In this document: positions 58,988 to 63,394 of the stretch, piece after piece
Position numbering within the stretch: position 1 is the stretch's first letter
Layout of the letters: each line of letters opens with the position of its first letter
Assembly (NCBI GenBank): GCA_031277165.1
Contig: JAISLT010000104.1
Span: 1-64,000 of the forward strand
DNA length: 64,000 nt
Reading direction: 5' to 3'
Source of the DNA: Spirochaetaceae bacterium
GTDB taxonomy: Bacteria > Spirochaetota > Spirochaetia > Treponematales > Breznakiellaceae
The notes under the pieces: generated by a model
The model's database searches: none
Seen by the model: only the letters and a program-made list of their open reading frames with translations
Told to the model about the DNA's origin: nothing
Position numbers and translations under genes: made by a program

Positions 58988-59842
58988 ATGGAGCGGATTT
59001 TATTAATTGCGGCGATGCTTATACCGGCCTTTTCCTGCATGGGAAAAAGCCCTTCACTGTACAGGGGGGAAAGACCGCCGGAGAAAATCCTGGCGGAGGC
59101 TCCGGATACCGGTACCGTATCCGGCGGCGTCCGGACCGGGGAAGGGCTTGGCCGGATCCTGGAAAGGGCGGAACTGCCCCCGGAGATCGCCGGGCATATC
59201 ACCGAAAACACCCCGGCTTTTATGGAGGATCTTGAACGGATCCTTGCGGAGGAAGATCCGTTCCTTCGTATTTTAGTTGACAAGCAGCATCCCCTTCCCG
59301 CGGCTTATGAACCGGATGATCTAGTGGAACTGCGGTACGGATCCTACCGGGCGGGGATATCCGATCCGATGATGCTCCGCCGTAAGGCAGAAGCGGCCCT
59401 GGAAGAAATGGCCGCCGCCGCCAAGGCCGAGGGGCTTGTGCTGACGGTTTCTTCCGCCTACCGTTCCTACGAATACCAGATAGGATCCTTTGACCGGTGG
59501 ACCCGGCGGCTGGGGCTTACGGAGGCGGAACGGGTTTCCGCCAGACCCGGCCATAGCCAGCATCAACTGGGATTGGTGGTGGACTTTGGCTCCATCACCA
59601 ATGAGTTTGCCGAAACCGCCGCGGGCAAATGGGTAAAGGCCAATGCGGGCCGTTTTGGCTGGTCCATCTCCTTTCCCCGGGGCTATGAGGAGCTTACCGG
59701 CTATGCCTGGGAAAGCTGGCATTACCGTTATACGGGCAGGGAGTTGTGCGTCTTTATTGACCGGTGGTTTGGCGGGATCCAGCAATACGCCCTGCGGTTT
59801 ATCCATGAGTGGGAGCAGTTTACCGGCGGCCGGCGCCCATGA
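58988..59842 (+). CDS. VanY-type D-alanyl-D-alanine carboxypeptidase (M15), lipoprotein
   Basis: This 284-residue M15 metallopeptidase trims D-Ala from peptidoglycan stems. The signal MERILLIAAMLIPAFSC ends with a lipobox Cys17. The zinc ligands and catalytic Glu are in ARPGHSQHQLGLVVDFG (SxHxxGxAxD-like, here Leu-Val in place of Ala) and WESWHYRYTG. SAYRSYEYQ is the conserved substrate-binding segment. Its TGA overlaps the ATG of the sensor-kinase gene by 4 bases, so the two are co-translated. A muropeptide or cell-wall role linked to the sensor is possible only by position. Confidence 0.88.
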   Translation: MERILLIAAMLIPAFSCMGKSPSLYRGERPPEKILAEAPDTGTVSGGVRTGEGLGRILERAELPPEIAGHITENTPAFMEDLERILAEEDPFLRILVDKQHPLPAAYEPDDLVELRYGSYRAGISDPMMLRRKAEAALEEMAAAAKAEGLVLTVSSAYRSYEYQIGSFDRWTRRLGLTEAERVSARPGHSQHQLGLVVDFGSITNEFAETAAGKWVKANAGRFGWSISFPRGYEELTGYAWESWHYRYTGRELCVFIDRWFGGIQQYALRFIHEWEQFTGGRRP

Positions 59843-62800
59843 AGCAGATCGTCCATACGATCCAGGAACGCTGCGTGGGGTGTAACCACTGCATCCGGGC
59901 CTGCCCCATCGAGACCGCCAATATCAGCTATATCGATCAGGATAAAAACAACAGGGTAAGGGTTGATCCCGCCCAGTGTATAGCCTGCGGAGCCTGTCTT
60001 TCCGCCTGTACCCACGGCGCCCGGTATTACGAGGACGATACGGAACGGTTTTTTGCGGACCTGCATTCGGGCAGACCTATCAGCCTTATGGTATCTCCCC
60101 TGCTTCGGATAGACTTTCCCCTCTGGAAACGGCTCTTAAGCCTGTTTCGGAACCTGGGAATCCGGGGCATCTACGACCTGTCCCTGGGGGCGGATATATG
60201 TGTCTGGGCGCACATCCGGTACCTGGAAAAAAACACCTCCCCCCTTATTGCCCAGCCCTGTCCGGCGGTGGTTTCCTACTGCGAGGTCCACAGGCCCGGA
60301 CTCCTGGAAAGGCTTTCGCCGGTGCAAAGCCCCGCGGGATGTCTGGGGATATACCTGCGGGAGTACCGGGGAATAACCGGAGACATCGCCGTCCTTTCCC
60401 CCTGCATTGCCCTGGGGAACGAAATTGAAGAATCGGGCGCCGCCGAATACAGCCTGACCTTTTTAAAGGCAGCCGAGTACCTGAAAAAAAATTTTCCGGA
60501 ACTGCCCGCGGAAGAATCGGAATTTACCCCGGGGTTTGAGGACCCTCCGGGGGAAGAAATCCCTCCGGGGGCTATGCTTTATGTACCGGGAGGCTTAGGA
60601 CAAAGCATCGGGTATTTTTCTAAACGCAGATTTTCCGTGGCACAGGGGGACGGACCGGGGGTGTATGGGAACATGGATCTGTTTGCCGATACCCCCGGGG
60701 AACTGCTTCCCCGGGTCTTTGACGTTCTTAGCTGCGCCGGGGGCTGCGGCCTGGGACCCGGAAGCTGCGGCCCTGGGTCCGGGGACTGCGGCCCGGGCGC
60801 CGGGGAAAAAAACATTTTTACCATACAGGCGGCCCTGGGCGGAAGCCGCCATGGGGCGCCGGATTCTGACAGGGATAATTACCGCCGGGCCCTGTTCCGG
60901 CGCTGCGACGAAACCCTTTCTCTGGAAAAATTTCTGCGCCGCCATGTTTCAAAGAACCAGGGGAGGCCGCCGGTTTCGGAGGAAGCCCTGAAGGAAGCCT
61001 TTGCAGCCCTGGACAAGGACACCGAGGCAAAGAGAAATGTAAACTGCGGCGCCTGCGGATCCGCCACCTGCGGAGAAATGGCGCGAAAGATTGCCCTGGG
61101 GATCAACATACCCCTTAATTGCATTGCCAAGGTCCGGGATACCGCCGTGATGGAACGGCAGAGGAATGTGGACCTGTACCGGAAAAACGCCGAGTACATT
61201 GAACTTGTCCACGACGTGGGCTTTGCCCTTATATCCGTGGCCAGCGACAACTTTGACCAGGGAATGTTCAATGCCCTGGAGGCCATATGCATTACCCTAA
61301 AGGGGGCGCAGGTTCAGCTTTGGCGGGCCGAAGACCGGGAAGGTACCACATGGCTTAAAAGATTATTCACCTATCCCCCGGGGGAGGGGGGCATGGATGC
61401 CTTTAACGAAGAGGCCCTGCCCGGCTGGATTGGGGAACTAGCCGCGGGCCGCAACGTGGGCCGGAACTTTTCGATCATGTCGAACCAGGAAAGGGAGATC
61501 TTTCAAAAACAGGGCATCGCATCGGTCATGGGGGTTCCAGTCCTGGTCCGGAACAAATTCTGGGGGATGATCCTGCTTTCCAGCAGCGAGGAACGGTCCT
61601 TTGCCGAAGCGGATGTGGAGGCCATTACCGCCGGGGGGCTTCTGATCGTGGCGAGCCTTATGGAGCGGGAGATGACCCTGCGTCTTATAGAGGCCAAGGA
61701 AGAAGCCCTGGCGGGTACCAGGGCAAAAAGCGACTTTCTTTCCCGGATGAGCCACGAAATTCGCACCCCCATGAACGCCATCATCGGCATGACCAAGATG
61801 GCGGAAATGACCGGGGATATAACAAAGCTCCGGTATTGCCTTTCCACCATCAAGGCTTCCTCCGCCCATCTGCTGGGGCTTATTAACGACATCCTTGATA
61901 TGTCTAAAATAGAAGCGGGCAAGTTTGATCTGGACAGCGTTTCTTTTAACTTAAAAAAAACCCTGGACAAGGTATGCAGTATTATTACAGAACGGGTCAC
62001 GGAAAAATCCCAAACCCTGGGAATAGACATGGATCCTTCCCTGTACCTGCATTACCACGGCGATGAGCTTAGGCTTTCCCAGGTAATTACCAACCTGCTT
62101 TCCAACGCCATAAAGTTTACCCCCGAGGGGGGAACAATTACCGTACAGGTCAAGAAACTAAAAGAGGAGGCCGAAGCGGATTGGCTGCGGTTTTCCGTTT
62201 CCGACACGGGTATTGGGATGACCCGGGAGCAGACGGCCCTGCTCTTTAGGCCCTTTCAACAGGCGGATAAAAACATTACCCAGCGCTTTGGCGGTACCGG
62301 ACTGGGGCTGGCAATTTCCAAATCCATCGTTGAAAAAATGAACGGCCGTATCTGGGTGGAATCCGAGACCGGCAAGGGTTCCGTTTTTTACTTTGAGATT
62401 CCCCTTAAACGGCAGGATCCCGGCGCAATCCAGGCCGAAGGGGATGAGCAGAAGGGCAAAGCCGGGACGGCGGATTTTAGGGACCTGCGGCTTCTGCTGG
62501 CGGAGGATATCGAGATAAACCGGGAGATTTTTAAGGCCCTGCTGGAGAGCACGGGGATTTCCATTGACATTGCGGAAAACGGCAAACGGGCGGTGGAAAT
62601 ATTCCAGAAATCCCCCGGCATCTACGATCTAATCATTATGGATGTTCAAATGCCCGAAATGGACGGCCTTGAGGCAACCAGGGCCATCCGCTCCCTGGGA
62701 ACCCCCCAGTCGGCGGCGATTCCTATTGTGGCTATGACAGCCAATGTCTTTAAAGAAGACATCGAAAACTGCCTGGCCGCGGGAATGAATGATCATCTGC

Positions 62801-62862
62801 AGAAGCCCATCGATGAAAAAGCCTTAATCGAGAAGATAACTTTTTTTGCTAAACGGAAATAG
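59839..62862 (+). CDS. Hydrogenase-like [FeFe] sensor hybrid histidine kinase
   Basis: A 1007-residue fusion. Residues 1-65 hold two 4Fe-4S motifs (Cys12/15/18/22 and Cys47/50/53/57). Residues 75-335 resemble the H-cluster domain of [FeFe]-hydrogenase: Cys141 (AQPCPAVV), Cys189 (SPCIALGNEIEE), Cys299 and Cys303 (SCAGGC) correspond to the H-cluster ligands. The position of the proton-shuttle Cys of enzymes is Pro140, so catalysis is doubtful. Residues 403-428 form a further Fe-S motif (Cys403, 406, 411, 428). A GAF-like domain (about 460-610) leads to HisKA with His639 (FLSRMSHEIRTP), an ATPase (N-box TNLLSNAIKF; DTGIG; GTGLGL) and a receiver with Asp935. A redox or H2 sensor that signals through phosphorylation is likely. 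I start at ATG 59839, overlapping the VanY stop. Confidence 0.88.
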   Translation: MKQIVHTIQERCVGCNHCIRACPIETANISYIDQDKNNRVRVDPAQCIACGACLSACTHGARYYEDDTERFFADLHSGRPISLMVSPLLRIDFPLWKRLLSLFRNLGIRGIYDLSLGADICVWAHIRYLEKNTSPLIAQPCPAVVSYCEVHRPGLLERLSPVQSPAGCLGIYLREYRGITGDIAVLSPCIALGNEIEESGAAEYSLTFLKAAEYLKKNFPELPAEESEFTPGFEDPPGEEIPPGAMLYVPGGLGQSIGYFSKRRFSVAQGDGPGVYGNMDLFADTPGELLPRVFDVLSCAGGCGLGPGSCGPGSGDCGPGAGEKNIFTIQAALGGSRHGAPDSDRDNYRRALFRRCDETLSLEKFLRRHVSKNQGRPPVSEEALKEAFAALDKDTEAKRNVNCGACGSATCGEMARKIALGINIPLNCIAKVRDTAVMERQRNVDLYRKNAEYIELVHDVGFALISVASDNFDQGMFNALEAICITLKGAQVQLWRAEDREGTTWLKRLFTYPPGEGGMDAFNEEALPGWIGELAAGRNVGRNFSIMSNQEREIFQKQGIASVMGVPVLVRNKFWGMILLSSSEERSFAEADVEAITAGGLLIVASLMEREMTLRLIEAKEEALAGTRAKSDFLSRMSHEIRTPMNAIIGMTKMAEMTGDITKLRYCLSTIKASSAHLLGLINDILDMSKIEAGKFDLDSVSFNLKKTLDKVCSIITERVTEKSQTLGIDMDPSLYLHYHGDELRLSQVITNLLSNAIKFTPEGGTITVQVKKLKEEAEADWLRFSVSDTGIGMTREQTALLFRPFQQADKNITQRFGGTGLGLAISKSIVEKMNGRIWVESETGKGSVFYFEIPLKRQDPGAIQAEGDEQKGKAGTADFRDLRLLLAEDIEINREIFKALLESTGISIDIAENGKRAVEIFQKSPGIYDLIIMDVQMPEMDGLEATRAIRSLGTPQSAAIPIVAMTANVFKEDIENCLAAGMNDHLQKPIDEKALIEKITFFAKRK

Positions 62863-62981: not shown

Positions 62982-63260
62982 TTACCAGTTGCCGCCAGAG
63001 TTTGAGCGGCGGGGTTTATCCATTGCTTCGTTTACCCGAATCTGGCGCCCTTCAAATTCCTTGCCGTTGGTACCGTTAATAGCCGCAGAGGCCTCTTCGT
63101 CGGTGCCCATTTCAATAAAACCGAACCCCTTGGAATTACCGGTATCCCGATCAAAGATAATCTTTGCCGAAGCCACCGTGCCAAATCCGGAGAAATAATT
63201 CCGCAGTCCGTCTTCTGTGGTGTTGTAAGAGAGGTTACCGACATACAATTTCTTAGCCAT
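62982..63260 (-). CDS. Single-RRM RNA-binding protein
   Basis: A 92-residue protein with one RNA-recognition motif: RNP2 LYVGNL near residue 5 and RNP1 KGFGFIEM near 45, then a short basic/Gly-Ser tail (KPRRSNSGGNW). This is the plan of bacterial and cyanobacterial small RRM proteins, often cold-regulated. I place the start at ATG 63260, which has GAGAAGGAAA ahead of it; an ATG at 63326 would add 22 unlikely residues. It is divergent to the secreted protein at 63395. Confidence 0.9.
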   Translation of the reverse strand: MAKKLYVGNLSYNTTEDGLRNYFSGFGTVASAKIIFDRDTGNSKGFGFIEMGTDEEASAAINGTNGKEFEGRQIRVNEAMDKPRRSNSGGNW

Positions 63261-63394
63261 GAACAAATTTCCTTCTCCCGGAATTTTCGGCCTCCGGGTG
63301 GGCCTAGGATCCGCCTGAAAAAACAAGCGCTGTTAGAACAGTATCCCAGTTTAGACTTGTCGTCAAGTCAATTTTAATTTATTATTTTTTTCAC

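Follow-up and report, generated by a model that had tools for sequence, protein, structure and literature searches.

A hydrogenase-derived hybrid histidine kinase without the conserved Lys and Ala of the [2Fe] pocket in a Spirochaetaceae bacterium

The window, a stretch of 64,000 nucleotides (contig JAISLT010000104.1) from a Spirochaetaceae bacterium, encodes a real hydrogenase-derived hybrid kinase, a variant of a known sensory type. The protein, which belongs to a lineage of termite-gut spirochetes, keeps its iron-sulfur Cys and has lost the Lys and Ala equivalent to K358 and A230 of CpI. Judging from sequence, we lean slightly toward an Fe-S sensor kinase in which the [2Fe] cofactor has probably been lost and redox, O2 or Fe-S status would be sensed instead of H2. 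The loss of these two residues, overlooked in the original prediction, is the interesting part of the protein, and the Pro140 that was singled out there is ordinary.

Domain layout, fold and iron-sulfur ligands

The ORF at 59839-62862 (forward strand) gives a stop-free translation of 1007 aa (Table 1); an alternative GTG start at 59809 would give 1017 aa. Pfam identified Fer4 pairs, Fe_hyd_lg_C (residues 97-307, 60.3 bits against a cut-off of 22.1, E 3e-16), FeS PF04060 (residues 401-428, 22.8 bits, slightly below the cut-off of 23), GAF (24.4 bits against a cut-off of 22.4), HisKA, HATPase_c and Response_reg. The motifs of a hybrid histidine kinase are complete, with His639 in the H-box, Asn756, the N and G boxes and the receiver Asp935. 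With these domains and intact motifs, the proposal that one 1007-residue chain joins [FeFe]-hydrogenase modules to a full hybrid kinase is borne out.

Table 1. Features of the kinase gene and its neighbors (positions in the window).
Feature	Position	Strand	Basis or remark
VanY-type D,D-carboxypeptidase	58988..59842	+	Upstream of kinase in 8/8 clade members
H-domain hybrid histidine kinase gene, 1007 aa	59839..62862	+	ORF translation, Pfam; ATG overlaps vanY stop
Two [4Fe-4S] ferredoxin motifs, Cys12/15/18/22 and Cys47/50/53/57	59863..60021	+	Pfam Fer4
H-domain, residues 80-310, ligands Cys141, 189, 299, 303	60076..60768	+	Pfam Fe_hyd_lg_C, hhalign, AlphaFold/Foldseek
Ser86 at CpI A230 position	60094..60096	+	Alignment, CpI numbering checked
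Pro140 at CpI C299 position	60256..60258	+	Alignment
Leu192 at CpI K358 position	60412..60414	+	Alignment
Gly/Pro/Cys insertion, window-specific, directly after L3 ligand loop	60757..60813	+	Alignment; low pLDDT
C-terminal [4Fe-4S] domain, Cys403/406/411/428	61039..61128	+	PF04060 22.8 bits; Cys invariant, 87 sequences
GAF domain, approximate whole-domain limits; Pfam stretch 550-598	61231..61632	+	Pfam; full-length GAF matches in orthologues
HisKA, phospho-acceptor His639	61723..61920	+	Pfam, motif check
HATPase_c with N, G1, G2 boxes	62059..62409	+	Pfam, motif check
Receiver domain, Asp935	62494..62838	+	Pfam Response_reg, motif check
RRM RNA-binding protein	62982..63326	-	Convergent; neighbor in 8/8 clade members

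The input module has the hydrogenase fold. An AlphaFold model of residues 1-436 reached a mean pLDDT of 90.4 and a pTM of 0.90, and its top Foldseek matches in the PDB are all [FeFe]-hydrogenases (TM normalized to the query 0.53-0.65). Aligned by hhalign against the bacterium's catalytic HydA, the 87-member family profile scored a probability of 99.7%. Cys141, 189, 299 and 303 correspond to CpI C300, C355, C499 and C503, and also align with the catalytic HydA of the bacterium's own genome. The PF02906 fold and the four cubane-ligating Cys of an [FeFe]-hydrogenase H-domain are both present; the misalignment at the cluster ligands that would have spoken against the original prediction was not seen, and its four H-cluster Cys are retained. 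The protein does not reach the NCBIfam cut-offs for group A or B1 catalytic [FeFe]-hydrogenases (71.6 of 405.95 and 81 of 450 bits); the genome's own HydA passes the A6 model at 791.8 bits (cut-off 765). The Fer4-Fer4/H-domain/C-terminal [4Fe-4S] layout followed by a signaling domain matches group C (M2f) as described in PMC13104023, with PAS replaced by GAF, and agrees with the sensory affinity suggested earlier.

All 16 Fe-S Cys columns are conserved among 88 further distinct members of the family, far beyond chance. In the clade of eight Spirochaetota sequences that includes the window protein they are kept in 128/128 cases, and this includes the eight ferredoxin-motif Cys in 8/8 members. 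Other Cys are less widely shared. The insertion at 60757-60813 brings an extra Cys310 and Cys317 beside the L3 cluster ligands, neither found in the two nearest relatives. Two non-ligand residues, Cys121 (60199-60201) and Cys168 (60340-60342), are shared by 95-96% of the family members that lie beyond the window clade; their equivalents are absent from MCP-type relatives and catalytic HydA.

The residue before Cys141 is Pro140, as predicted, where catalytic CpI has C299. The position is occupied by Pro in 74/81 and Ser in 7/81 of the family members outside the window clade, and in published sensory hydrogenases by Ala (about 43%), Cys (17%) or Pro (about 10%) (PMC10055695). Since Pro is the norm in the family and is known elsewhere among sensory hydrogenases, Pro140 does not single the protein out, and we rejected it as the key anomaly. 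No close homologue has the Cys restored; Pro, Ser or Leu stands there. The M353 position is frequently Ser in sensory hydrogenases (PMC10055695), and both Pro140 and Ser187 are thus typical of the group. A single chain carrying kinase and receiver, first taken for a more compact form, is likewise not unusual, because one-chain output is the rule in a family whose outputs vary among HK-REC, GGDEF (L069, L057) and MCP (L100, L116, L129, L131).

Loss of [2Fe] pocket residues and relaxation of the H-domain

A230 and K358 of CpI contact the [2Fe] cofactor, and in mutants of CpI and CrHydA1 the replacement of K358 is reported to affect cofactor binding. The window protein has Ser86 and Leu192 at these positions, so that neither [2Fe]-contacting residue of a functional H-cluster is present, and Leu247 at the position of F417. 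The equivalents of P231, P301, P324 and P354 (CpI numbering) are retained. The eight-member clade is monophyletic when the pocket columns are left out (bootstrap 99/SH-aLRT 99, the bootstrap being not fully settled), and its common gene order also supports the grouping. Outside it, Lys occupies the K358 position in 81/81 family members and Ala the A230 position in 80/81. Within it the residues are L, R, R, G, G, G, Q, K and S, D, D, D, D, S, S, A, respectively; the same 7/8 members are without both Lys and Ala, and L018 alone keeps both. F417 is mostly lost as well (L, L, L, I, M, Y, F, F). MCP-type relatives have Lys at the K358 position in 15/16 cases; L020, a relative of this type, is an independent exception with His. 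The combined loss of Lys and Ala makes H2 sensing by the window protein, one of the options in the original prediction, doubtful.

The whole H-domain of the clade evolves under relaxed constraint, and purifying selection persists. For clade pairs the ratio of H-domain dN to kinase dN comes to 3.75, 4.65, 3.94 and 1.69; the 14 other pairs span 0.44-1.81, with a median of 0.92 (Mann-Whitney, one-sided p 0.002; the pairs are not independent). H-domain dN/dS is 0.24-0.39 in clade pairs vs. 0.04-0.16 in the others. A loss specific to the pocket was considered and rejected: pocket columns are retained at 0.727 and other conserved H-domain columns at 0.724. With equal retention, our claim is one of domain-wide relaxation that spared the Cys rather than of targeted pocket loss.

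Several readings of this decay have to be weighed. The protein may still be an H2 sensor, its pocket accepting [2Fe] despite Leu192 and Ser86 with an altered affinity or potential, and H2 turnover altering kinase activity; we consider this rather unlikely. The varied replacements of the Lys (at least four residues: L, R, G, Q) look like lost constraint and not like a specific new solution, the Lys is invariant in all non-clade family members and in catalytic HydA, and the H-domain is relaxed relative to the kinase. Against cofactor loss, however, L018 keeps Lys and Ala, the [2Fe]-bridging ligand Cys and the other cubane ligands are kept along with the four Pro equivalents, the fold is intact (AlphaFold, Foldseek) and the maturases are present. 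Moreover, group C sensors vary in the second sphere, and TmHydS binds [2Fe] though it is without C299, M353 and M497 (PMC10055695).

Relaxation might also mean that the H-domain is a vestige, with GAF and kinase alone mattering and the Fe-S domains being lost. Identity between sister species is indeed far higher in the GAF (82%), kinase (88%) and receiver (89-94%) than in the H-domain (61-67%). Yet clade branches carry about one change per column, and over such distances the 16 Fe-S Cys are kept in 8/8 members, the reading frame is intact in 8/8, and H-domain dN/dS still indicates purifying selection, which makes a vestige improbable. We give very little credence to a third alternative, in which the H-domain was re-adapted to another ligand, for instance a [2Fe-2S] cluster in the former [2Fe] cavity, the arrangement proposed for Nar1, or a gas like NO or CO at the cubane. 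Nar1 was reported with a [2Fe-2S] cluster whose proposed location is that cavity (PMC12621388), and the two extra Cys of the insertion lie beside the L3 ligands; these Cys are confined to the window species, though, and the replacing residues differ among clade members, so that no common new site is visible.

We return to the slightly favored reading, an Fe-S sensor kinase in which the [2Fe] cofactor is probably lost. From the domains, motifs, residue losses, rates and synteny read in the sequence, we infer the following cluster content, ligand, signal direction and downstream partners. On this reading the protein is a hybrid histidine kinase of the cytoplasm that uses a retired H2-sensing module as its input, the Fer4-Fer4/H-domain/C-terminal [4Fe-4S] unit having descended from sensory [FeFe]-hydrogenases of the group C-like kind. 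The pocket that would take up the [2Fe] half of the H-cluster has decayed in this vertically inherited lineage, while the four cubane ligands and 12 other Fe-S Cys were kept, and three or four [4Fe-4S] clusters would probably be bound with no [2Fe] subcluster. The signal would not be H2 but redox, O2 or Fe-S status. Together with GAF, the Fe-S module may control autophosphorylation at His639, from which phosphate would pass to Asp935 in the receiver of the same chain, and from there probably on to a separate Hpt protein and a regulator. The genome contains eight Hpt matches.

Locus, genome and family distribution

The kinase ATG at 59839 overlaps the vanY stop (ATGA), an overlap present in most of the eight clade members. 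The order VanY, kinase, convergent RRM, M15 peptidase, ilvH and leuA-like gene is found in 8/8 of them, and family members outside the clade have different gene surroundings. The clade is a single locus that has been passed down vertically across at least four genera. Two M15/VanY-type D,D-peptidases (58988-59842 and L050:8396-9334) flank the kinase locus and are kept in 8/8 clade members. An Rfam search found no RNA element near the kinase gene, and promoter and terminator scans gave no more matches than chance.

The bacterium's own genome encodes HydE, HydF and HydG, all above curated cut-offs, and carries a group A6-type catalytic HydA. Missing maturases are thus ruled out, and the pocket loss cannot be put down to a lack of cofactor supply. 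HydG was not found in some relatives' MAGs, but these genomes are incomplete and the absence was given no weight. The bacterium also encodes another H-domain sensor (L048:15106-17226, contig C52), which has an MCP signaling domain and keeps the Lys at the K358 position. This sensor is likely an H2 chemosensor and could do the cell's H2 sensing.

The search for homologues and genomic partners that had been proposed as a check covered 120 genomes from the bacterium's own taxonomic family, and 84,980 species genomes were scanned as well. Apart from the window protein, 88 distinct proteins that share its 430-aa input module were recovered (39-68% identity). The species scan represents the best 80 of 432 relatives and shows the closest kin rather than the full range; these best 80 of 432 loci all bear termite- or cockroach-type sample names. 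A termite host is confirmed for the prefixes Nt197, Co191, Emb289, Lab288 and Th196 (PMC7024585), and the host behind the remaining prefixes is taken from their naming, as is that of the Oxalobacter entry, by name a cockroach single-cell genome. Record titles name Spirochaetota, Bacillota, Fibrobacterota, Acidobacteriota, Synergistota, Actinomycetota, Pseudomonadota and Desulfobacterota. Placed on the tree, these labels require 24-25 changes although 8 would be enough, a scatter that fits repeated transfer, though mis-binning of MAGs may contribute. We do not claim lateral transfer for the window's own clade, given its vertical synteny. In gut bacteria of several phyla the input module occurs with GGDEF or MCP outputs, possibly through gene exchange in the insect gut. 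That the family is concentrated in termite and cockroach guts, across phyla and outputs, speaks for exchange of genes and for common selection in a habitat rich in H2.

Close relatives of the window protein probably sense H2. For the wider picture we see the chances as evenly balanced: a pseudo-hydrogenase sensor kinase that lost the cofactor, kept its Fe-S clusters for redox or Fe-S sensing and settled in a fixed locus that couples it to a cell-wall peptidase, with H2-competent insect-gut relatives that exchange outputs and cross phyla.

Comparison with known systems

The kinase resembles TmHydS of Thermotoga maritima (group C/M2f), compared here by its published description, in its two N-terminal [4Fe-4S] clusters, four-Cys H-domain and C-terminal [4Fe-4S] domain, and in both proteins C299, M353 and M497 are all replaced (PMC10055695, PMC13104023). 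They differ in that TmHydS has PAS where the window protein has GAF-HK-REC in one chain, and TmHydS keeps the [2Fe] H-bonding residues (PMC10055695), whereas the window protein is without K358 and A230. In TamHydS the C-terminal cluster is unresponsive to H2 (PMC13104023). One family now offers a natural series that begins with complete H-cluster pockets and ends with decayed ones, and it thereby makes testable whether H-domain signaling runs via the [2Fe] site or the Fe-S clusters, the question raised by TmHydS and TamHydS (PMC13104023). It also carries a warning: H-domain matches with four cubane Cys need a check of K358 before they are annotated as H2 sensors.

The insect-gut H-domain kinases, diguanylate cyclases and MCPs (L007, L069, L129) share the same ligands and mostly the same Pro140, and are 40-68% identical across the 430-aa input module. 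They differ in keeping Lys and Ala and in their varied outputs and contexts, while the window protein sits in the clade of eight with its fixed locus. Termite-gut treponemes, whose hydrogen sensors offer a third comparison, are the same kind of host bacterium and have multiple H-domain sensors per genome. Ballor, Paulsen and Leadbetter in 2012 reportedly described transducers of phosphorelay and methylation type. Their paper is among those cited by PMC4070709. Finally, Nar1/CIAO3 has the hydrogenase fold and Fe-S clusters but no H-cluster (PMC12621388, PMC12991071). Nar1/CIAO3 differs in being a eukaryotic Fe-S assembly factor without a kinase; Nar1 is a precedent for an H-domain fold that persists without the H-cluster.
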